Positions 8,569 through 24,292 of a stretch of DNA of 34,571 nucleotides are shown here, piece after piece. The notes below the pieces were generated by a model that had not been told where the DNA came from, did not search any database, and was given only the letters and a program-made list of their open reading frames with translations. Origin of the DNA: a virus; IMG/VR virus record IMGVR_UViG_3300034073_001576, positions 1 through 34,571 of that record. One strand, 5' to 3'. Within the stretch, counting starts at the first letter, position 1; each line of letters starts with the position of its first letter. The translations under genes and the position numbers were made by a program.

Positions 8569-9455
8569 TGACCGCCAAAGAAAGGCTTATAAAGAAGATT
8601 GCGCAGTCGATGGAGGATGCGCCTGATGCCTTTTTTCGGGGGGTTAAAAAGGCGCAGCGTGAAGCGTTTGCACAAATAGTTAGCGAGATAGCAACGCTGG
8701 CAACGGATGACGCTGGCAACTTGGTTGTAGGCCAAGGCAATTTCAACAAGATAGATGGCTTGGTAAAAAAGATGCGGGCAGCTTATTTGAACCCTGAATA
8801 CAGCCAGTCAATCCGAAACTTTGTAAACAGCATCGATGCAACGGCTGGCATAACAGGGGACTTGGTAGGCATCATTACGGGCGAGGCATTTGTGCAATCA
8901 CCAAAGGCAGCAGCAATCTTATCCAATGCCAAGGCCACAACATTTGATTTGCTTTCAAACGCTGCGGTTGATGAAAGTACGGCATCTTTTAAAAGCATCC
9001 TGAACAGCAGCATATCTACTGGCGAGAACCTTCAACAGGTCATTCGTAACGTGCGAAACAACATCCAAGGGACTGATGAATTCGCTGGCCGAATGGAGAG
9101 GTATGCCAAACAAAACGCATACGACTTCTACAGCATATCAAATGCGCAGTACATTCGGCAAGTTAGCGAGGACTATGGGTTTGAATTTTACGAGTACATA
9201 GGGGTTGAAGTGAAGGGTACACGGTCATTCTGCAACGAAAGAAATAACAAGATATTTCACAAGCGAGAAATCCAAGATTGGGCGAATATAAATTGGGAGG
9301 GCAAAATGAGGGGCACAAACGAAACCACCATCTTCGCATATCGGGGCGGTTACAACTGCGGGCATCAAATTATCCCAGTTGCTACCGAAGATGTACCCGA
9401 AGATGTAATTAACAGGGCAATTGCGGCAGGGTTTTATACACCTGAAGAAGAATAA
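8568..9455 (+). CDS. MuF-like minor head protein, 295 aa
   Basis: The N-terminal two thirds are helical. The C-terminal third has the pattern of phage head morphogenesis (SPP1 gp7/MuF-like) proteins: GVEVKGTRSFCNERN, a central W, then TIFAYRGGYNCGHQIIPV with conserved Cys and His. Such proteins usually sit at the portal inside the head; here the portal gene lies 4 kb downstream, beyond an accessory island. The start overlaps the previous stop. Its 3' end overlaps the convergent minus-strand gene by 22 bases, so the two transcripts are antisense at their ends. Confidence 0.7.
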   Translation: MTAKERLIKKIAQSMEDAPDAFFRGVKKAQREAFAQIVSEIATLATDDAGNLVVGQGNFNKIDGLVKKMRAAYLNPEYSQSIRNFVNSIDATAGITGDLVGIITGEAFVQSPKAAAILSNAKATTFDLLSNAAVDESTASFKSILNSSISTGENLQQVIRNVRNNIQGTDEFAGRMERYAKQNAYDFYSISNAQYIRQVSEDYGFEFYEYIGVEVKGTRSFCNERNNKIFHKREIQDWANINWEGKMRGTNETTIFAYRGGYNCGHQIIPVATEDVPEDVINRAIAAGFYTPEEE

Positions 9456-10195
9456 TCTTTAAGCAAATGAAGCCTATCTTGGTCGGCCAAGTAATCGTAG
9501 AACTTCTTTGCCTTGCTTACCTGAACGAAAGGTGTATTTTGAATGTCGGCAAAAATCATGCTGTGCAGACGGCTGGTGTATAGCATCTTCAACCTACCAA
9601 AATACTTCAGGTAATCTTCGGTGCTACCGCCAAACCAATGTTCGCCACCGAACACCCTAACAAAGTTTTCATTCATTGCCACATCGTTGTGGTTGGCATC
9701 GTTGCAAAGCGAAATCCAAACGATATTGTCACGACCTATTTGTTTAATAATGTTTCGTGCCACCATGTTTTCATCCCGCCAACCTGATAAGCAAATACCT
9801 ACCTTTTCGGTGCGTTCTACTTCGACGGGTTCAAGGTGCTGAAGGACAAGATCAGGCGCATACTTGCATTTCAAGAATTCGGCATCTGCCTTACTGCGCA
9901 CCACCGCCGATTTCACCTTCAAATGCTTAAGGGCTTCGGTCGCTTCATTGTAATTACCAAGGCCAACACCAAGCAGTTCAACGGTTGTGCCTTCGGGCAA
10001 ATGTCGGGTGTAGAATTTATGCACGACATCACCACCGCCAATGATTGTTCTGCCGCCCGGCCGCCAATCTTCGCCAGTAGTAAAGATTAGTTCTTTGTCA
10101 GGGAAAATCTTTGTTTGAAATACGTGCCGAAATGCTTCATCGCCAGCGTTACCTTTGCCGTACCAGCCGATAATATTAATGTGTTTCTTTTTCAT
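9434..10195 (-). CDS. Polysaccharide pyruvyl transferase-family protein, 253 aa
   Basis: Family members transfer pyruvate or act in exopolysaccharide and cell-wall glycan synthesis (CsaB/WcaK type). Visible motifs: GWYGKGNAGDEA at residues 10-21, IGGGDVVHKF near 52-61, LLGVGLGNYNEA near 74-85, VGICLSGW near 132-139, and C-terminal SRLHSMIFADIQNTPFVQV from about 208. Length is short but within range for single-domain members. It is the second gene of a minus-strand pair, overlapping the upstream start by 4 bases. A glycan enzyme against the direction of the tail/head genes looks like an accessory (moron) gene that could alter host surface polysaccharide or the virion; the substrate is unknown. 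Confidence 0.78.
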   Translation of the reverse strand: MKKKHINIIGWYGKGNAGDEAFRHVFQTKIFPDKELIFTTGEDWRPGGRTIIGGGDVVHKFYTRHLPEGTTVELLGVGLGNYNEATEALKHLKVKSAVVRSKADAEFLKCKYAPDLVLQHLEPVEVERTEKVGICLSGWRDENMVARNIIKQIGRDNIVWISLCNDANHNDVAMNENFVRVFGGEHWFGGSTEDYLKYFGRLKMLYTSRLHSMIFADIQNTPFVQVSKAKKFYDYLADQDRLHLLKDYSSSGV

Positions 10196-10551
10196 TTTGT
10201 TACTGATTGAATTGTATTAAAAATGGCAAACCATTTGCCGGGGATTGAACGCTTGTAGTGTTGAACCTTCGCCACGTGCTGGGCAACCGTTACCCTACTA
10301 ATGCCGATTATTTCTGCCGCTTCGGATTGGCTTAGCCCTTTCATTGACACGAAGTAGTACGATGCGATGCGCTTGATGTCTGCATACTGCCGCCTACTTG
10401 CTTGCTTGAATTGGCTCAAATCAACCCCGTAATGGGCGCAAAGTTGCCAAATAAAGTCATCGGCAGCGGATGAAATGCGGTGATTTATAGCCTTATTCAC
10501 CGCAGATTTAAGGTCGAAAAGTTCAGCAAGCGACAAATGGCTGATGTCCAT
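10192..10551 (-). CDS. DnaA C-terminal-like HTH protein, 119 aa
   Basis: Residues about 54-98 (RRQYADIKRIASYYF, then LSQSEAAEIIGISRVTVAQHV) match the pattern of the DnaA domain IV/TrpR-like helix-turn-helix, with no AAA+ domain. The N-terminus (LFDLKSAVNKAINHRISSA) resembles the N-terminus of the protein at 22362-22832, so the two look like paralogues. It is the first gene of a minus-strand pair with the pyruvyl transferase-like gene. Direct repeats lie just upstream (10551-10585) over its promoter. A transcriptional regulator, possibly autoregulatory, is the simplest reading. Confidence 0.6.
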   Translation of the reverse strand: MDISHLSLAELFDLKSAVNKAINHRISSAADDFIWQLCAHYGVDLSQFKQASRRQYADIKRIASYYFVSMKGLSQSEAAEIIGISRVTVAQHVAKVQHYKRSIPGKWFAIFNTIQSVTK

Positions 10552-11165: not shown

Positions 11166-11190
11166 GGTTGTTTTCATGGTTATCAAAAGG

Positions 11191-11214
11191 GCCCTGCTTC
11201 GGTGGGGCTTTTTT
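11191..11214 (+). terminator. Intrinsic terminator with TTCG loop
   Basis: Stem GCCCTGC/GTGGGGC (11191-11197 with 11202-11208, two G-T pairs), TTCG loop, then six T. It ends the 10635-11165 transcript and sits directly upstream of the first copy of the shared promoter cassette. Confidence 0.8.
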
Positions 11215-11215
11215 G

Positions 11216-11263
11216 TTTTAACACTTATTAAGATTTTCGTATTGATATTCTTTGTAGGTTTGC
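11216..11263 (+). promoter_or_regulatory. Shared operator-promoter cassette, copy 1
   Basis: One TTTTAACACTT box (11216-11226), then a block starting GATTTTCGTATTGATATT at 11232 and a -7 element TAGGTTTG at 11255-11262 followed by C. The gap from box to -7 is 28 bases, identical to that of the proximal box in copy 2. No TTG is present at the -33 position (AAG instead). Drives 11279-11741. Confidence 0.65.
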
Positions 11264-13635: not shown

Positions 13636-15441
13636 ATGGCAGACATATTCGCATTAATTGACCACGCAGCAAAACAAATTCGTAAAAAGCGCAGCATTGT
13701 TGGGATGCCAAGCAAGTACGACAAGAAGTTTGAAACCGAACGCTATTACGAAAGCCTGCCCGAGTTCACCGAAATATACGAGTACACGATTCGTGAACAC
13801 AATGCCGTTTGTGTACATGCAGAGGCCAACCAGTTCCCATACGAAATCCTGCGGTCAAAAGCACCAAACCAGCAACCTGAAGAATGGGAATATCAAAAGG
13901 GGCTTTATGAACCAACGACCAACACCGAATGGAACAGGGCATTGAACCGAACCAAGGCGGTTGCAAATAGCCAAAACTATTCTATTGAGTGGGCAAACGA
14001 TGAGCAGAAGGAGTATTTTTATGGGCTTTACCCCGAATACTACAGCATCGAAGCCTACTTTTTTGACATTGTACGTGAACGCAAGATAAACTACCCTAAC
14101 CAATTGCTGTTGGTTTGCCCTGAGTATCTGCCGATGAAAACGGCCATTGATGAAGAAGGCAACGAATATGAAGTGGTTGACCAGTCAGAATTGGTTTCGC
14201 CAGTAGCCAAAATCTACGAAGAAAAGTATATCGCTGGCTACAAGGCTGGAGAGTATGCGCTACTTTGGAACGGCAAAGATGGGGATAAAATGGGCTTTAA
14301 GTACGTTGATAAGATGTCAATTTACGAAGCATACGTTAACGGCAAAGATGTTAAAGGCAACCTAACCTTTGAAGTGGTCGAAGTATTTCGGCATGGCTGG
14401 CGATATCTGCCAGCATGGAAGTTAGGCGGCAAGCCTGAGATGAAGGATGGCGAGGTGCTGTATCGTTCTGCCTTTGCCGATGCAATCCCACACTTGAATA
14501 CCGTTATTCGGCTGGAAAGCAATTTAATGATGTCAACGTATCGTTTGGCTTTCCCGATTATCATTGCCGTAGTTGACAGGTGCGATGCCGCTGGATGTGA
14601 CGGCGGTCAAGTTTGGAACAACGAATCCAATGGCTATTCTGCATGCGGCAAATGTAACGGCACAGGCAAGAACCTAAACCACAGCCCAACGGGGATATAC
14701 GAAGTAGCCGCCACAACCCGAATGGGCGAAACCAATCAGCTGGCTATGTCACCGCCAGTTCAGTTTGCTGCACCCCCAAGCGAGATTCTAAAGTACACCA
14801 GCGACCAAATCGAAGCAAGGCGGCGGTCAGCGTTCGGTATGTTCTTCGAGCCTGAGCAAGCCAATTCAGCAACGGCAACAGGCAAGCAAATTGAGAAAGA
14901 GGAATGGCAGACCTTTATGGTGCAGTTCGCCCGTGAGTTATTTGCGTTAATGGATATGGCGATTGAGGCCATTGGGTTTATGCGTTACGGCACAGCCTTT
15001 GAAAAGCCAAGCATTCAAGTACCTACTTCTTTCAACTTCAGAAGCTACGAGGATATTACCAGCGAAATCGGGACGGCCAAAGAACAGTCACTACCGGACA
15101 GCGCAGTCGCATCTTTGCTGTATCAATATGTAGGCACAAGGTTCAACGCTTCGCCCAAGGTTGAGAAGATGATTAAGTTGCAAATCAAACTTGACAGGCT
15201 TTGGTCAAAAGATGACCTGACCGTTAGAGGTATGTTGGGCAGCACAGCAACCGAGGCCGAGGTTATTTTGCACAATAGCTTCGTGACTATCTTGAATCAG
15301 GCATACGATGAGAATGAGAATTTCGATGAACTTGAAACAGCCCAGCAACGTGAAATCGTTCTTGGGATTGCAACCACAATTGCCGAGCCGTTTACAAGCA
15401 GACCGATTGACGGCCAAGCGGCATTAGGTGGATTTGCCTAA
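13636..15441 (+). CDS. Portal protein, 601 aa
   Basis: The portal dodecamer is the DNA channel at one head vertex. Size fits, and the central helix-rich region (LNTVIRLESNLMMSTYRLAF) and late FARELFALMDMAIEAIGF helix are as I recall from Bacteroidota phage portals. A Cys-rich insertion at about 315-345 (CDAAGCDGG, then CGKCNGTGK) looks like a DnaJ-type zinc ribbon. Next to the coiled-coil, scaffold and capsid genes, the position supports the call. No nucleotide-binding motif is present. Identification combines recollection and synteny rather than a search. Confidence 0.75.
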   Translation: MADIFALIDHAAKQIRKKRSIVGMPSKYDKKFETERYYESLPEFTEIYEYTIREHNAVCVHAEANQFPYEILRSKAPNQQPEEWEYQKGLYEPTTNTEWNRALNRTKAVANSQNYSIEWANDEQKEYFYGLYPEYYSIEAYFFDIVRERKINYPNQLLLVCPEYLPMKTAIDEEGNEYEVVDQSELVSPVAKIYEEKYIAGYKAGEYALLWNGKDGDKMGFKYVDKMSIYEAYVNGKDVKGNLTFEVVEVFRHGWRYLPAWKLGGKPEMKDGEVLYRSAFADAIPHLNTVIRLESNLMMSTYRLAFPIIIAVVDRCDAAGCDGGQVWNNESNGYSACGKCNGTGKNLNHSPTGIYEVAATTRMGETNQLAMSPPVQFAAPPSEILKYTSDQIEARRRSAFGMFFEPEQANSATATGKQIEKEEWQTFMVQFARELFALMDMAIEAIGFMRYGTAFEKPSIQVPTSFNFRSYEDITSEIGTAKEQSLPDSAVASLLYQYVGTRFNASPKVEKMIKLQIKLDRLWSKDDLTVRGMLGSTATEAEVILHNSFVTILNQAYDENENFDELETAQQREIVLGIATTIAEPFTSRPIDGQAALGGFA

Positions 15442-16678: not shown

Positions 16679-16698
16679 GCGGCCTAAACTGATTAAAC

Positions 16699-16724
16699 AG
16701 CCCTACTTCGGTGGGGCTTTTTTT
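16699..16724 (+). terminator. Intrinsic terminator with TTCG loop
   Basis: Stem AGCCCTAC/GTGGGGCT (16699-16706 with 16711-16718, one G-T pair), TTCG tetraloop and seven T. It ends the portal-scaffold transcript, so the capsid gene must have its own promoter. From here to 16850 I see no gene. Confidence 0.85.
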
Positions 16725-16849
16725 ATGCCCGTTTGGGTATAAACAAAACGAATAAGGCGGAACTAATCACCGATAGGGTATATTTCGCCAAAGGTCAATT
16801 ATTCTTTACCTTTTGGAGAATTATCTCACCATTGGCGAGGGACTTAAAA

Positions 16850-17221: not shown

Positions 17222-17509
17222 TTATAACGTTTTTCGGGCAATCCGCAGCAACTTATCTTCGTTAATATCGTAGGCGGTGGCCGCTTCGGTGGCCGCCTGA
17301 TACCGATTCATGCCGTGCCGCCGCAATTCATCGTACATTTCAACAGCAAATTCGATGCGTTTGCTGTATGCAGCCTTGACGCTTTTGTGATGTGCCCTTG
17401 GTGCGCATTGGTAGTTTGTTGTTGGTTCACCGTCTGGGCAATTTCTGCCGCCATATTGTTCAAAAAACGTGATGACGGGCTTACTGGGTTGTTGTATTTC
17501 ATTCTCCAT
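17222..17509 (-). CDS. Small hypothetical, possible DNA-binding protein, 95 aa
   Basis: Start chosen at ATG 17509 (MENEIQQPSKPVITFFEQ). The frame stays open upstream to 17686, but that part reads as a shadow of the capsid promoter region and overlaps the capsid start. The C-terminal half (ELRRHGMNRYQAATEAATAY, then INEDKLLRIARK) has a helix-turn-helix look. It is transcribed away from the capsid gene, with the inverted repeat at 17530-17552 between them, suggesting autoregulation. Weak identification. Confidence 0.55.
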   Translation of the reverse strand: MENEIQQPSKPVITFFEQYGGRNCPDGEPTTNYQCAPRAHHKSVKAAYSKRIEFAVEMYDELRRHGMNRYQAATEAATAYDINEDKLLRIARKTL

Positions 17510-17529
17510 AACGCAAAATTGTGAAAAAA

Positions 17530-17562
17530 AACAATGCATTTGATACATTGTTGGTAAATTTG
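17530..17562. promoter_or_regulatory. Inverted repeat and -7 element of the capsid transcript
   Basis: AACAATG (17530-17536) and CATTGTT (17546-17552) are exact inverted repeats with a 9-base centre. TAAATTTG (17555-17562), an exact -7 match, follows directly on the plus strand. The repeat therefore overlaps the polymerase site and also lies upstream of the minus-strand gene, so a dimeric protein could control both directions. Confidence 0.5.
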
Positions 17563-17667
17563 TGATAGTCGGCTTGCGCTGCCGAACCAAAATGGCGCAT
17601 TGTCGGGTGAAGTTGCCCCCGAAAAAGTAGGCAGCACAAACAAATTGACAACAAAAAAACAAATACA
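17563..17667 (+). other. Structured 5' leader of the capsid gene
   Basis: About 105 bases separate the -7 element from the capsid ATG. They contain two short hairpins: TCGGC/GCCGA (17569-17573 with 17581-17585) and TCGGG/CCCGA (17603-17607 with 17618-17622), then an A-rich run up to the ATG. Such leaders may stabilise an abundant mRNA; this is inference. Confidence 0.35.
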
Positions 17668-18735
17668 ATGTCAGCATTATCTTCATTTATAGCTTGCCCT
17701 AATGTGCAGCTATCTTTATTCGACTCCTTCGGGGTTGACAACCTAAAAGCAGAGCCTTTGCCCTTGCTTTCTTTTATCTTATCTGCGCCTAACCGGTCAG
17801 ACGTTATCCAAAACCAACTTAACTTTCGTGACCACGGTCGCAAAACGGTTGAGGTCGTCTACGGCCAGCGTTTTCTTGAATCAATGGTACAAGACGGCGG
17901 TCGTGTAACCTGCGGCACTTGGTCTAACGATGGCGAAACTTCTGTTTTGTATTCGCTAACCCCTTCTGACGGTTACCACGTTGGTTTCAAATTAACCGCT
18001 TCTGAGTTAGAAGAACGCTGCGAGGCCGACACCAACTACATCGCAAAAGAGGTGTTCAAAATGATGGACGTTTTGGCCCGTAAAGTTGCAACCAACGCCG
18101 CCATTCAAATCATCGCCAACAGCGGTAACTTCGCTTCTGACGTTGACAATGGTCTTGCGCCCGGCACAAGCACCAGCAAGAACGCTGATACCGTTTTGAG
18201 TGCTGGCGGACCCAACTACGATGCTACCGAAGTAATTGCTTTTGAGAACATGGCGAACGAATTCAACGGAATGCCCTACGTTTTCGGCGGCGAAACTTGG
18301 TGGAAGTACATCAAAGCGTTGAACGCTGCTGCTCCCCCTGCATTTACTGACGGAGGTTTGTCAACTGGTCTTTATGCCCAACAAGCTGGCATCACTTACG
18401 GTTACGACCGCAGAATTCAGCTAAACGACACAGCCCCAACTGCTGCGTATTCTATCATCCCAGGAGCCGTTCAAATGATTTCGTTTAACGAATTCAAAGG
18501 CATCTTGGAGATGAACGACAGCACGTTGGTGCAGGGTACTTTGCAGCATCCTGATCCGAACTTGCCATTAACTTTCGACTACCGTGCGGAATATACTTGC
18601 AACGGTGCAGACAGCAAGGTGTGGAATTTTGAAGTTGCGTTGAACCACGACTTCATCTTCTTGCCAGCTGATATGTATCAGGCAGGCGACCGCTTGGAAG
18701 GTGTTAACGGCATCTTGAAATTCGTAGGAGTTTAA
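17668..18735 (+). CDS. Probable major capsid protein, 355 aa
   Basis: Preceded by a strong-looking promoter and long leader, and followed by a perfect terminator, so it has its own abundant transcript. Codon use is strongly biased (GGT, CGT, GTT, AAC), as in highly expressed genes, unlike most neighbours. The protein has an N-terminal helical arm, a middle domain (SDGYHVGFKLTASELEERCE, MMDVLARKVATNAAIQIIA) and a C-terminal beta-rich part (NFEVALNHDFIFLPADMY). Length fits HK97-fold capsids. It lies after portal and scaffold, where the capsid gene belongs. No sequence family was verified. Confidence 0.78.
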   Translation: MSALSSFIACPNVQLSLFDSFGVDNLKAEPLPLLSFILSAPNRSDVIQNQLNFRDHGRKTVEVVYGQRFLESMVQDGGRVTCGTWSNDGETSVLYSLTPSDGYHVGFKLTASELEERCEADTNYIAKEVFKMMDVLARKVATNAAIQIIANSGNFASDVDNGLAPGTSTSKNADTVLSAGGPNYDATEVIAFENMANEFNGMPYVFGGETWWKYIKALNAAAPPAFTDGGLSTGLYAQQAGITYGYDRRIQLNDTAPTAAYSIIPGAVQMISFNEFKGILEMNDSTLVQGTLQHPDPNLPLTFDYRAEYTCNGADSKVWNFEVALNHDFIFLPADMYQAGDRLEGVNGILKFVGV

Positions 18736-20339: not shown

Positions 20340-20361
20340 AGCCCCACATCGGGGCTTTTTT
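20340..20361 (+). terminator. Intrinsic terminator after holin
   Basis: Stem AGCCCC/GGGGCT (20340-20345 with 20351-20356), ACATC loop and a T run to 20361. It separates the late genes from the early operon and abuts cassette copy 2. Confidence 0.85.
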
Positions 20362-20362
20362 G

Positions 20363-20419
20363 TTTTAACACTTTTTAACACTTGTTGTTGATTTCGTGTT
20401 GAAATAACTATTAGGTTTG
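20363..20419 (+). promoter_or_regulatory. Shared operator-promoter cassette, copy 2
   Basis: Two tandem TTTTAACACTT boxes (20363-20373 and 20373-20383) with starts exactly 10 bases apart, one helical turn. Then TTG (20388-20390), a 21-base spacer with the GATTTCGTGTTGA block, and TAGGTTTG (20412-20419) followed by C. This is a full Bacteroidota promoter, and the only cassette copy with a good -33 TTG. It drives the long early operon from 20441. Confidence 0.7.
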
Positions 20420-20440
20420 CAGAACAAAACAACACATACC

Positions 20441-20635
20441 ATGAAAATCACCCTAATCGAATCGCCACTTGTTGGCGGTAGCAAAATCCAAATCATCGGC
20501 AAGCCCGACAAAGGTCGCCCGATACTATTCGCCACATTCAGGTCGCAGCCGCCGTTGATACCCAGCGAAATGGTAATGCGCCAAGCAAACATCGTTCTTT
20601 CTAATTTAATCACCTTTTACAAACAAAACCAATGA
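20441..20635 (+). CDS. Small hypothetical protein, first gene of early operon, 64 aa
   Basis: Start ATG 20441 lies 21 bases after the -7 element; an in-frame ATG at 20417 overlaps the -7 element itself. The product (ITLIESPLVGGSKIQIIGK, then MVMRQANIVLSNLITFY) is small, with a strand-loop start and a C-terminal helix. It overlaps the next start (ATGA). It is expressed first in the operon, a place often used for host-takeover or regulatory proteins, but nothing in the sequence shows a function. Confidence 0.65.
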   Translation: MKITLIESPLVGGSKIQIIGKPDKGRPILFATFRSQPPLIPSEMVMRQANIVLSNLITFYKQNQ

Positions 20636-21177
20636 CACTTAAAGAACTTTTAATCAAATTAGACGCTTGCAAAGAAGCAAGAGAATGGGCAAGAGATATG
20701 CCTATCGAAGAAATAGTTTCAACCTGCCACCGAGGTGATTGGTTGCTTTGGCTTGCCCAAAAAGTTGATGTAGATTTACGCCTTCGCACGTTGGCGAAAG
20801 GGCATTGTGCAAACACCGTTAGGCACTTAATGACAGACGAGCGAAGCATAAACGCTGTTGATGTGGCTATTGCGTTTGGTGAAGGTAAGGCTACACGTGA
20901 AGAGTTAGATGCTGCTGCTTATGCTGCTTATGCTGCTGCTGTTGCTGCTGCTGCTGATGCTGCTTATGCTGCTTATGCTGCTGATGCTGCTTATGCTGCC
21001 GCTGCTGCTTATGCTTATGCTTATGCTTATGCTTCTGTTGATGCTGCTGCTGCTGCTGCTGCTGCTCGTGCTTCTGCTGCTGCTGATGCCGCCAACCGCC
21101 AACAAGCCGCCGACATCTGCCGCCAGTATATCGGTGAAGCTTTAATCGAAAAAGTAAATCAATTATTAACCAAGTAA
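20632..21177 (+). CDS. GDW-type protein with Ala/Tyr repeat region, 181 aa
   Basis: Residues 1-90 form a globular domain (CKEAREWARDMPIEE, HRGDWLLWLAQK, LAKGHCANTVRHLMTDERS, AIAFGEGKATREELDAA) that I recall from a widespread phage/bacterial family ending in Ala-rich repeats. Residues about 92-150 are almost only Ala, Tyr and Asp, made from GCT and TAT/GAT codons. A helical C-terminus (ADICRQYIGEALIEKVNQLL) follows. The repeat would form an amphipathic or antifreeze-like helix. Function is unknown; some relatives are labelled immunity-like, which I cannot support here. Confidence 0.7.
   Translation: MTLKELLIKLDACKEAREWARDMPIEEIVSTCHRGDWLLWLAQKVDVDLRLRTLAKGHCANTVRHLMTDERSINAVDVAIAFGEGKATREELDAAAYAAYAAAVAAAADAAYAAYAADAAYAAAAAYAYAYAYASVDAAAAAAAARASAAADAANRQQAADICRQYIGEALIEKVNQLLTK
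20909..21090 (+). repeat. GCT/TAT triplet repeat tract in the Ala/Tyr gene
   Basis: Nearly uninterrupted GCT codons with TAT and GAT interspersed, including a tandem GCTTAT run near 21005-21033. All units are multiples of three, so length changes would alter the protein without shifting frame. The other frames give meaningless poly-Leu, poly-Ser and poly-Gln readings. Confidence 0.85.
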
Positions 21178-21187
21178 AACAAAACCT

Positions 21188-21757
21188 ATGAAAAACAACG
21201 GCAAAGTAAACATTCACGGCAGGGAGTACGAAACAGTAGCCCTTCGTGTGCAAAAATTCAAGGCGGCATGCCCTGACCATTCATTAACAACTGAGGTGCT
21301 GACAAGGGATGCCGAATGCGTAGTTATGAAAGCAAGCATCTTCAACCCCGAAGGGCGGCTGGTAGCTACTGGCCACGCTGAAGAATATCGCAAGGCATCC
21401 AGCATCAATAAAACATCTGCCCTTGAAAACGCTGAAACATCGGCAATCGGTAGGGCATTGGCAGCCTTTGGCCTTGGCGGTACTGAATTTGCTACCGCAG
21501 ATGAAGTGGCAAATGCTATCGGTCAGCAAAAGGCACAGGCGCAAGCAGCGCCAGTAGTGATTGATTTTCTAACCTTGCCCGATCCCCAACAAGAATTGGT
21601 TAACACCTTGTTCGACATCAGCCAGCAACTGCCTGACGTCAGCAAAGAAAAGGCCAACCCGTTTGCAGATGCCGATTGCATCAATGTAAAATCTTGGGCG
21701 AAAGATGAGGCAACAGTGAAAAAAGCAATTGACATTTACACCAAACAATTAAATTGA
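21188..21757 (+). CDS. Recombination-associated protein, single-strand annealing candidate, 189 aa
   Basis: Shows KVNIHGREYETVALRVQKF near the start and the strong motif SSINKTSALENAETSAIGRAL, followed by AAFGLGGTEFATADEVANAI. I recall this family in phage recombination modules. It overlaps the YqaJ-like exonuclease gene by 4 bases, and an exonuclease paired with an annealing protein is the standard phage recombination set. The exact superfamily is not established. The C-terminal third is linker-like, then a short helix pair. Confidence 0.65.
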   Translation: MKNNGKVNIHGREYETVALRVQKFKAACPDHSLTTEVLTRDAECVVMKASIFNPEGRLVATGHAEEYRKASSINKTSALENAETSAIGRALAAFGLGGTEFATADEVANAIGQQKAQAQAAPVVIDFLTLPDPQQELVNTLFDISQQLPDVSKEKANPFADADCINVKSWAKDEATVKKAIDIYTKQLN

Positions 21758-22365
21758 TGCAAGATTTCAAAATCAGATGTTCTGCCATTGGTCAAATTAT
21801 GGCTAATGGCAGGGGTAAAGATACGGCTGGGGCAACGTGCTATTCATATCTGCAAGATTGGATTATCGAACAAATCTACGGGGTGCGGAAGCAGATTGAC
21901 AGCCGCCCAATGGAGAAAGGTAGGCTGGTCGAAGATGCAGCCATTGAATTCGCTGGCCAGCACCTTAACTGGTTTATGCCAGAAAAGAACGAAACCTTTT
22001 TTGAGAATGAGTTTTTGACTGGGACGCCCGATGTTATTCACGGCAACACGGTTGTGGATATTAAATGCCCTTGGGATGTTTTCACTTTCCCAATGTGGGA
22101 ACGCAACCCACCGAAAGGATATTGGTATCAGCTTCAAGGCTACATGCACCTGTTGGGGCTTAAACGGGCCCAGTTGGTGTACGTGCTAATGCCAACCCCC
22201 GAAGAACTTGGGGGCATCCAGTTAGACCTGACAAATATCCCAGCCAAATATCGGTTGAAGGTGTTTGACATTTATTACGATGAAGCCACCATTCAGGCTA
22301 TCTACGAACGGGTACAAATGTGCCGCAACATTATCGAAGTTGAACTTTTACCACAATTACAATGA
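21754..22365 (+). CDS. YqaJ-like PD-(D/E)XK exonuclease, 203 aa
   Basis: Core nuclease residues are visible: EKGRLVEDAAIE near 53-64, LTGTPDVI with Asp near 93, VDIKCPWD with the D-x-K near 102-104, and YQLQGYMHLLGLKRAQLVYV around 125-145. This is the lambda-exo/YqaJ fold, which resects double-stranded DNA ends for annealing. Coupled to the upstream candidate annealing gene (ATGATG junction) and the downstream DnaA-like gene by 4-base overlaps. Confidence 0.82.
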   Translation: MMQDFKIRCSAIGQIMANGRGKDTAGATCYSYLQDWIIEQIYGVRKQIDSRPMEKGRLVEDAAIEFAGQHLNWFMPEKNETFFENEFLTGTPDVIHGNTVVDIKCPWDVFTFPMWERNPPKGYWYQLQGYMHLLGLKRAQLVYVLMPTPEELGGIQLDLTNIPAKYRLKVFDIYYDEATIQAIYERVQMCRNIIEVELLPQLQ

Positions 22366-22832
22366 CTGAACGACAATTTGAACGCTACCTGTTGAAACAG
22401 GACAACGATAGCTTACTGAAGATTCGCACCGAAATTGACCGGATAATCAACAGCCGAAACGATGAATTCTTTAAGATGCATTTGCGCACCGAACACCAGC
22501 GATATGTAATCAAAGCCGCTGCCGATTACTGGGGGTTACCTTATGAGGCCGCATATAGCAAGCGAAGGTTTCGTGAAGTAAAACATTTCAAGCATGCCAT
22601 GAGGTTTGCTATGCGATGCGCTACATCAATGAGCCTTCAGGACATCGGCAAGATGCTGAATTGTGAGCATGCAACGGTTATGCACAGCATCAAGTTTGTG
22701 CAGGATTCTATCTTGGCAGACCCCCAATACTACATGCGCTGCATTGAATTTTGCGAGCATATTAAAATGGTCATGCAAGAATTGGAAATGAATAAAAATA
22801 CACCTATCTTCACGTCAATTAATTACAACTAA
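22362..22832 (+). CDS. DnaA C-terminal-like DNA-binding protein, 156 aa
   Basis: Residues about 75-120 match DnaA domain IV: FKHAMRFAMRCATSMSLQDI, then GKMLNCEHATVMHSIKFVQD, with the HATVMH signature that contacts DnaA boxes. There is no AAA+ ATPase part. The N-terminus (LLKIRTEIDRIINSRNDEFF) resembles the minus-strand HTH protein at 10192-10551. In the replication/recombination operon it may bind an origin or host DnaA boxes. Overlaps the exonuclease gene (ATGA). Confidence 0.75.
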   Translation: MTERQFERYLLKQDNDSLLKIRTEIDRIINSRNDEFFKMHLRTEHQRYVIKAAADYWGLPYEAAYSKRRFREVKHFKHAMRFAMRCATSMSLQDIGKMLNCEHATVMHSIKFVQDSILADPQYYMRCIEFCEHIKMVMQELEMNKNTPIFTSINYN

Positions 22833-22846
22833 ACACACACAAAACC

Positions 22847-23458
22847 ATGACACACAACATTATCAAAACCGAAAACTATCTTCTTATTGTAAGTGATGAA
22901 GAGATTAAAATTGGAAATTACTACTTATGTAAGTTAAGTATGAAACCTAAAAAATATATAGGGGATGAATACTTTAATACTGTTAATGAGAAAAAAATAA
23001 CAGCCCACATAACACTCAACAACTCACCTGTTCTTAAAGGTGTGCCCATTTTGCCACCGCTTGAAGATGAGGTTGAGGAAGCAGAGGAAGTATTTAAAGA
23101 AGTGCTTGACAGTGAAACTAAGCAGGTATATGACAAGATGCTACTTGGCGCTACTGAACATGGTTTTATTATTGGCTACAAAAAAGCCAAAGAGAAGTAT
23201 AAGTACACAGAGGAGGAGATGAAAAGGATTTATGAAAAAGGATACTCTGCTGGTAGAAATGAATTAAATTCTAGAGAATCTGATAAAATAAAATATGACT
23301 ATATCCAATCCCTCCAAAAATCAAAGATGCCTGTTGGGTTTGAGTGTGAGATGGAAAACAAGATTGCTATTGATGGTCATACAGTAATAGGTAGTGAGCC
23401 TAAAACAACAACCAACTCACAAGGCCAAACCGTTTTGGCGGGCAAATACATTTATTAA
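22847..23458 (+). CDS. Bacteroidota phage hypothetical, A+T-rich, 203 aa
   Basis: Begins with a YLLIVSDEEIKIGNYYLC segment, then HITLNNSPVLKGVPILPPLE, an acidic linker, AKEKYKYTEEEMKRIYEKGY, and ends TTTNSQGQTVLAGKYIY. I recall this architecture from many Bacteroidota phage and mobile-element proteins of unknown function. The gene is visibly richer in A and T than its neighbours, which suggests recent acquisition from another phage. Confidence 0.65.
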   Translation: MTHNIIKTENYLLIVSDEEIKIGNYYLCKLSMKPKKYIGDEYFNTVNEKKITAHITLNNSPVLKGVPILPPLEDEVEEAEEVFKEVLDSETKQVYDKMLLGATEHGFIIGYKKAKEKYKYTEEEMKRIYEKGYSAGRNELNSRESDKIKYDYIQSLQKSKMPVGFECEMENKIAIDGHTVIGSEPKTTTNSQGQTVLAGKYIY

Positions 23459-23477
23459 CCATTAACACACAAAAACC

Positions 23478-23786
23478 ATGAACAAAAACCAATTAGAACA
23501 GCTTGGCTTTGAGCAAATCAAAGACGGCAGTTGGGCGCAAATGATTCGGCCAACCTATTTAGATGTGCCGATTATTGTTAGGTCTTACCCCGACAAAGAA
23601 ACGGCAACCGCTTCGATTGCCATTACTCAAAATGGGCAGAAGGGCGAGCTGATTATCGGCACTTGCGCCAATCGGGCGGCAGACCTTAAGCATCTGCTAT
23701 CTTGGCTGTCGATGGATGGCAAAGAAATCGGCCAGCACATCGTAAGCAAAGCAATTCAACGCAAGAAACTAATCAAAACCAAATAA
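23478..23786 (+). CDS. Small hypothetical upstream of SSB, 102 aa
   Basis: ATG preceded by an A-rich leader (acacacaaaaaccATG). The product has LEQLGFEQIKDGSWAQ, a MIRPTYLDVPIIVRSYPD strand, and LLSWLSMDGKEIGQHIV near the end. It lies three bases before the SSB start, so it is likely expressed with it in the replication operon. No family was recognised. Confidence 0.6.
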   Translation: MNKNQLEQLGFEQIKDGSWAQMIRPTYLDVPIIVRSYPDKETATASIAITQNGQKGELIIGTCANRAADLKHLLSWLSMDGKEIGQHIVSKAIQRKKLIKTK

Positions 23787-23788
23787 CC

Positions 23789-24154
23789 ATGTTACAACTA
23801 CAATTAATCGGCAGAATCGGCAAAGATGCTGAACTGGTCGGCAAAAACAAAGACATCACTACCTTTTCGGTAGCGGTCGGCAAGGGCGAAGAAACCCAAT
23901 GGTTTCGCTGCACGCTGTTCGGTCGGGACGGCAAGCCTGCTGGGGTTGCAAAATTCTTGAGCAAAGGCACGCAAGTGTACATCAGCGGTCGGCCTGTGCT
24001 TGACGTTTACAAGGACAAAGAAGGCAACGACAAGATCGGCAACGACATCAAGGTTTTAGTAAACCAAGTAGAACTGCTTGGCGGTCTGCGTACCGAAACA
24101 GGCGGTGGCCGTTTGCCTGAACTGGCAACCGATGGCGACAACCTGCCATTCTAA
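23789..24154 (+). CDS. ssb: Single-stranded DNA-binding protein, 121 aa
   Basis: Start ATG 23789 (MLQLQLIGRIGKDAEL); the longer in-frame reading from 23702 runs into the upstream gene and is wrong. The OB-fold pattern is clear: GRIGKDAEL, ITTFSVAVGKG, WFRCTLFGR, VAKFLSKGTQVYISGRP and VNQVELLGG. The C-terminus is acidic and ends DNLPF, the protein-interaction tip of SSBs. It coats ssDNA in replication and recombination. A terminator follows. Confidence 0.92.
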   Translation: MLQLQLIGRIGKDAELVGKNKDITTFSVAVGKGEETQWFRCTLFGRDGKPAGVAKFLSKGTQVYISGRPVLDVYKDKEGNDKIGNDIKVLVNQVELLGGLRTETGGGRLPELATDGDNLPF

Positions 24155-24177: not shown

Positions 24178-24209
24178 GCCCCTGCCGAAAGGTTGGGGCT
24201 TTTTCTTTT
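24178..24209 (+). terminator. Intrinsic terminator after SSB
   Basis: Stem GCCCC/GGGGC (24178-24182 with 24195-24199), extended inside by GCC/GGT pairing around a GAAA loop (one T-T mismatch), then a T-rich tail. It ends the operon starting at 20441 and precedes cassette copy 3. Confidence 0.8.
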
Positions 24210-24216
24210 TATGCCC

Positions 24217-24292
24217 AAGTGTTAAAAAGTGTTAAAATGCTGGGTGTATTTTAGTAGATCTGATTTTCGTATTGATATTATTTTTAGGTTTG
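24217..24292 (+). promoter_or_regulatory. Shared operator-promoter cassette, copy 3
   Basis: Two tandem boxes AAGTGTTAAAA (24217-24227, 24227-24237), the reverse complement of TTTTAACACTT, again 10 bases apart. GATTTTCGTATTGATATT from 24262 and TAGGTTTG at 24285-24292 plus C follow, nearly identical to copy 1. The boxes sit 47 bases from the -7 element, 19 further than in the other copies, and are flipped. Drives 24316 onward. Confidence 0.65.

Follow-up and report, generated by a model that had tools for sequence, protein, structure and literature searches.

Phased TTAACA box pairs at the heads of phage transcription units, a candidate site for a host RprY-type response regulator

Terminators, box pairs, and promoters in the phage genome

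The window analyzed here is an entire virus record of 34,571 bases with siphovirus-type genes, among them those for tape measure, portal, holin, and terminase proteins. Its lysin/holin unit is closed by an intrinsic terminator (20340..20362, plus strand), which consists of an AGCCCC-loop-GGGGCT hairpin at 20340-20356 followed by a T run and has a computed stability of -11.3 kcal/mol, equaled by 0 of 200 shuffled sequences. Directly after the terminator, in agreement with the original prediction, lie two TTTTAACACTT boxes at 20363-20373 and 20373-20383, with starts 10 bases apart. They contain a perfect pair, TTAACA-N4-TTAACA (20365..20380), on the same (plus) strand as the promoter and with a gap of 31 bases to a -7 element, TAGGTTTG (20412..20419, plus strand), which also bears out the 28-base step that had been claimed between the second, proximal TTTTAACACTT box and the promoter element. 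When numbering follows the published Bacteroidota promoter description (PMC6847099), with the T of TA at -12, the pair is centered at approximately -51.5 and transcription is predicted to start at approximately 20424, 17 nt 5' of the ATG at 20441. This start codon is 21 bases downstream of TAGGTTTG, and the unit that it opens (20441..24154, plus strand) includes small genes, a DnaA_C-domain protein (22362-22832), and SSB (23702-24154).

A scan of the window for TTAACA-N4-TTAACA with at most one mismatch returned three sites, at 11218 (plus strand, one mismatch), 20365 (plus strand), and 24220 (minus strand). The cassette at 11218 begins with a terminator hairpin (11184..11215, plus strand), followed by the pair TTAACA-N4-TTAAGA (11218..11233, plus strand), centered at approximately -41.5, and, after a gap of 21, by the -7 element TAGGTTTG (11255..11262, plus strand). 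What had been described at 11216 as a single box thus has a degenerate second half-site, TTAAGA, 10 bp further on, and the label of an early operon is too narrow for these cassettes, because this promoter heads genes extending to the portal gene (13636-15441). In the third cassette, a terminator hairpin (24178..24204, plus strand) precedes a perfect pair on the minus strand (24220..24235; the plus strand reads TGTTAA-N4-TGTTAA) and a -7 element, TAGGTTTG (24285..24292, plus strand), that heads a unit with methyltransferases, a ParB-like protein, and terminase. The inverted orientation of this pair relative to its promoter was absent from the earlier description. The recurrence of the module at 11216 and 24217 therefore stands insofar as similar cassettes, each after a hairpin, occur at both places, but the 24217 boxes, inverted and 49 bases (counted from the hexamer) from the -7 element, do not form the same module; this gap of 49 in the window compares with 27 in most relatives.

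The cassette core is thus a 10-bp direct repeat, TTAACA-N4-TTAACA, located 5' of a Bacteroidota-type -7 element. TAnnTTTG is present at all three window sites and is shared with the primary-sigma promoter of the phylum (-33 TTTG, -7 TAnnTTTG; PMC6847099), whereas no conserved TTG stands at a spacing suitable for -33 TTTG across the three window promoters; the TTG-N21 spacing proposed for the 20412 promoter holds there, at 20388, but has no TTG to match it in the other two. The -7 elements differ as well: the window uses TAGGTTTG at 11255, 20412, and 24285, while in F. johnsoniae promoters there is practically no G at the two -7 positions where TAGGTTTG departs (PMC6847099). Weakness of the -7 element would be in keeping with a promoter that needs an activator. 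Relatives of the phage also use TACTATTG and TAATATTG at this position.

Within the window, the counts are only suggestive when compared with chance, as its five boxes were reached by 3 of 100 shuffles and its three pairs (at most one mismatch) by 2 of 100. The main weight of the box evidence lies with the relatives and with the phasing.

Conservation and helical phasing among phages

A lysin homology search that was blind to the box identified 31 related contigs, with lysins 84-99% identical. These contigs and the window together contain 84 box pairs with no more than one mismatch, every one of them at one of a few fixed gaps to a TA..[TA]TTG element, with same-strand gaps of 21 (17 sites) and 31 (19 sites) and inverted gaps of 27 (23 sites), 28 (12), 38 (4), 49 (7), and 20 (2). 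The pair is present in 31 of the 31 loci that span the 20363 junction, and a site is present in 26 of the 26 that span the 24217 junction, the window being included in both counts. The proposal that several operons share one regulator is well supported by the first of these counts, absence of the box from related phages having been the finding named in advance as speaking against it. The sites at the 20363 junction comprise 19 forward pairs at gap 31, one forward pair at gap 21, and 12 inverted pairs at gap 28; orientation flips between relatives, and the gap changes to match. These relatives are not independent of one another, yet a flip accompanied by the matching change of distance would be hard to explain without function. 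Variants keep TTAACA while the adjoining T run changes (CGTTAACA, CATTAACA). At 16690-16760 the window retains the terminator and has no box pair, and relatives carry the pair at the same junction (10 sites). A search for a cultured relative gave no near match in the phage collection, and terminase matches were at most ~28% identical.

Viral contigs at large were scanned for a forward or an inverted pair before TANNTTTG, with the hexamers read backwards as the control. Each scan gave at least 120 matches, so that match number offers no contrast between forward, inverted, and control patterns, and only the phasing was taken from these scans. Among the matches listed, the gaps of viral loci peak at 21-22, 31-32, and 41-42 in the forward orientation and at 27-29 and 37-39 in the inverted orientation. 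The vector length R at a period of 10.5 bp is 0.62 for the forward matches listed (N=119) and 0.56 for the inverted ones (N=110), compared with 0.10 and no phasing for the control matches listed (N=102). After thinning of the listed matches to promoters less than 60% identical, 91 forward and 74 inverted promoters were left, and R was 0.56 for both. The forward pair centers lie at approximately -41.5, -51.5, and -61.5 (T of TA at -12), positions at which activators in contact with RNA polymerase usually bind. Helical phasing with the -7 element that persists across several turns is what such an upstream activator would require, and the word operator, in the sense of a repressor site, is for this reason not favored for these boxes.

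Named phages of Bacteroidota and relatives mostly lack the pair: of 12, 11 are without any and one has it. That one, Riemerella phage RAP44 (L443, ~48 kb), carries pairs in both orientations, to either side of a short stretch that precedes a small HTH gene.

The box in bacterial chromosomes

The box is shared with bacterial genomes. The exact 21-mer was found in 28 stretches among 84,980 genomes, of which 22 were Bacteroidota by title and two more Ignavibacteria. The forward pattern outnumbered the backward control by 27 matches to three in 148 genomes, by 41 to none in the 41 genomes of a single Bacteroidales family, and, with gaps restricted to 31-32, by 25 to one in 395 genomes, 12 of these 25 being located in one genome. 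The phage peak for inverted pairs at 27-28 led to the expectation that inverted host sites would be found 27-28 bases from the -7 element; the inverted pattern had 40 matches versus one control in 148 genomes, and 24 of the 40 fell at gap 26-29. Host loci were returned for 30 inverted matches, 19 at gap 26-29 and 11 at other gaps. Of the 24 listed at gap 26-29, four without a locus were left out, and the fifth without a locus (G010) was an rprX-like gene.

Approached from the box side, 15 of the 19 inverted host loci at gap 26-29 begin a gene with a kinase-like N-terminus, compared with 0 of the 11 at other gaps. When the 15 were fetched at length, all revealed a kinase followed by an OmpR-family regulator of 225-231 residues, and no other two-component operon was found behind gap 26-29 among the 19 loci. 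HisKA/HATPase_c and Response_reg/Trans_reg_C domains were identified with Pfam in the four pairs scanned of the 15; with the first regulator as reference, identity across the 15 is 42-82%. Locus L075 belongs to the genus Pedobacter, and its genome, G001, carries a perfect box at rprX. The best NCBIfam match was RprY (NF051850) in eight of eight regulators scanned, clear of the next family, with scores of 231-309 bits against a curated cut-off of 370, for which reason these regulators are designated RprY-type only. Other host loci have the box before CarboxypepD_reg-like proteins. A gene in one locus, L136, that resembled Spy/CpxP by eye had no Pfam match and was not used.

Approached from the gene side, with genes selected by NF051850 and not by the box, 35 places were found in 21 of 61 genomes and their upstream sequences were fetched; six places without a recognizable kinase frame were left out, leaving 29 regions. 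An inverted pair (at most one mismatch) lies upstream of the kinase in 12 of 29, compared with 5 of 58 control comparisons (Fisher p=0.0009); the other 17 regions have no inverted pair at that threshold, and a forward pair was present in 0 of 29. In genomes G114 and G095, each of which has several RprY-like genes, the perfect pair heads a lower-scoring one.

The Bacteroidales family of genome G004, in which forward boxes are most numerous, presents a different distribution. None of eight regions (2.2-2.6 kb) upstream of its RprY-like genes has a pair at up to one mismatch, while, among the 12 regions examined with that set, two others have one (from G095 and G131, respectively); G004 itself, the assembly of which may be incomplete, has no RprY match at 1e-60. 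The box in this family precedes recA (in four genomes), dprA, a comEC-like gene, and genes for an HhH protein, exonuclease VII, a PIF1-like helicase, a MoxR-type ATPase, and a PorX-like regulator, which perhaps constitute a competence/DNA-uptake and recombination regulon. Either RprY-type control has moved to other genes in this family or another regulator reads the same box. The family loci (L102-L118, L375-L400) share a stereotyped promoter in which a TTAACA pair or triple is followed by 31-32 bases and then by TAnnTTTG. MoxR-type ATPase genes follow the box in L375, L376, L378, L381, and L128, the domain having been checked in L375.

A candidate host regulator and competing explanations

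Direct half-sites spaced at 10-11 bp on one helical face are typical of the tandem boxes bound by OmpR, PhoB, and CpxR. The phage cassettes have these features of an OmpR/PhoB-type site, namely tandem direct half-sites approximately one turn apart and helical phasing with the core promoter, and differ in their half-site, TTAACA/TGTTAA, and in its use in both orientations at two different phases. The box pair is very probably a host-shared, helically phased regulatory site, and the chances are roughly even that its reader on these phage promoters is a two-component regulator of the RprY type. From the sequences we infer binding of an RprY-like protein, activation, and the presence of an RprXY-type system in the phage's own host.

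The explanation that best accounts for the cassettes as a whole, to which we assign a probability of about 0.52, is that each joins a terminator to a downstream promoter that depends on an activator, with a host RprY-type regulator acting on the box pair. TTAACA-N4-TTAACA would be a tandem site for a host response regulator of the OmpR/PhoB type, most likely of the RprY type with RprX as its partner kinase. This protein would bind as head-to-tail copies along a single DNA face, separated from the -7 element by an integral number of helical turns, and its contact with host RNA polymerase carrying the primary sigma factor would activate the phage unit. The site would be usable in either orientation, each at its own phase, and the terminator would isolate each unit so that the signaling state of the host sets its transcription. 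The phage probably lets a host signaling system switch on its genes in this manner.

Among characterized systems, RprXY of B. fragilis and P. gingivalis provides the best family match for the host regulators behind the box, although the kinase-regulator pairs described here score under the family cut-off, and autoregulation is reported for P. gingivalis RprY (PMC4072883, PMC5706477). This protein binds its own promoter and may act as a repressor (PMC5706477), and RprXY is reported to be essential in B. fragilis (PMC4072883). The words motif, consensus, and binding site were absent from the P. gingivalis RprY papers searched, and a DNA motif for the RprXY system was not found in the literature searched.

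Regulation of this kind is already known, as genes of the cyanophages S-PM2d and P-SSM2 are under the control of host PhoBR and gel shifts demonstrated PhoB binding to some of the phage promoters (PMC10976474). The two cases are alike in that phage promoters carry boxes for a host response regulator of the OmpR/PhoB type, which is putative here; they differ in that the cyanophage case concerns some genes and the phosphate response, whereas the present boxes have another sequence, would be read by another regulator, and stand at the heads of three units that include structural and replication genes (PMC10976474). A Pho box was rejected as the identity of the pair: 0 of 30 PstS upstream regions in Bacteroidota have the N4-spaced TTAACA pair at up to one mismatch, and two have imperfect pairs at other spacings. 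The half-site of B. subtilis PhoP does resemble TTAACA.

In the literature searched, mostly papers open without subscription, no paper joins the box, RprY, and phages, nor did the search find the box, its regulator, its placement at the starts of several units, or its phasing in two orientations. Little is known of how Bacteroidota phages control the expression of their genes. If true, a box linking phage and RprXY would offer a testable circuit, a motif with which to predict the host regulon, and a marker of phage operons in metagenomes, and the idea that phages listen to host two-component signals, known from cyanophages and phosphate, would reach a further phylum and a further signal. More tentatively, the RprXY-type system of Bacteroidota may be a switch tapped independently by many unrelated phages, with the box pair as a general plug that works in both orientations and over several turns; phage transcription would then rise under envelope or redox stress, which infection itself might cause, and the box would be the first DNA motif for RprY-type regulators.

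The alternative that fares best, itself rather unlikely, is that another conserved host regulator, either a tandem-binding OmpR-type protein or a global factor, reads the boxes and happens to control rprXY too. This idea gains from the G004 family, where recA (four genomes), comEC, dprA, exonuclease VII, and MoxR genes have the box and rprX does not, and from the boxes before CarboxypepD_reg-like proteins. Control by an RprY-type regulator is in turn favored in that, of the 19 host loci having the predicted gap, 15 are one kinase-regulator operon, with no other two-component operon among the 19.

That box and phasing recur in unrelated viral contigs as well as on the chromosomes of bacteria points to a host factor. 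A binder encoded by the phage is therefore improbable, be it the DnaA_C-domain protein at 22362-22832, the 17222-17686 product, or the HTH protein at 10192-10551; the first two correspond to the trans-acting candidates of the original prediction, which had counted two DnaA-C-like proteins where Pfam scans of 40 window proteins yielded one DnaA_C protein and no other. Of the 31 related loci, 29 have the DnaA_C protein and 24 the 17222 product, as would suit such a role, but the HTH gene is present in only 10, the same half-site, repeat length, and phasing occur in unrelated viral contigs and at genes on bacterial chromosomes, and the box is by inspection a poor match to a DnaA box (consensus TTWTNCACA), an identity that was accordingly rejected. 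Protein clustering likewise yielded no phage regulator common to box contigs: it recovered replication and packaging genes and two small clusters, DnaA-C-like by eye, each found in nine box loci and no control locus. These counts are confounded by host group, the control contigs coming from other hosts, and nothing follows from them. A response regulator was not detected among the 40 window proteins scanned with Pfam.

Still less probable is an UP element, in which phased T tracts would be bound by the alpha subunit of RNA polymerase without a separate regulator. Alpha contacts or DNA bending would fit the T5 runs at 10-bp intervals, the helical phasing, and a site usable in either orientation; however, TTAACA remains constant beside a variable T run, the pair is missing from 11 of the 12 named phages, and regions upstream of 16S rRNA genes in the phylum (16S match in 23 of 61 genomes) have A tracts and isolated TTAACA or TGTTAA hexamers only, with no pair before TAnnTTTG. 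An ordinary rRNA-type UP element was rejected on this last ground. Chance or mere descent, that is, an AT-rich intergenic motif common to related phages, can draw on the modest window counts (2-3 of 100 shuffles) and is given a negligible probability in view of the phasing among dissimilar promoters, its absence from the control, and the host prediction that held.

Several minor features were observed alongside the cassettes. Some Bacteroidota rRNA operons (upstream of 16S in loci L410, L411, and L424) have four to five tandem TAnnTTTG promoters ~100-155 bp apart, together with A tracts. Two minus-strand genes at 9434-10551 of the window, located amid plus-strand ones, encode a polysaccharide pyruvyl transferase-like protein and an HTH protein, and the gene at 20632-21177 encodes a protein with a long alanine/tyrosine-rich 9-bp repeat that is found in 10 of 31 relatives.
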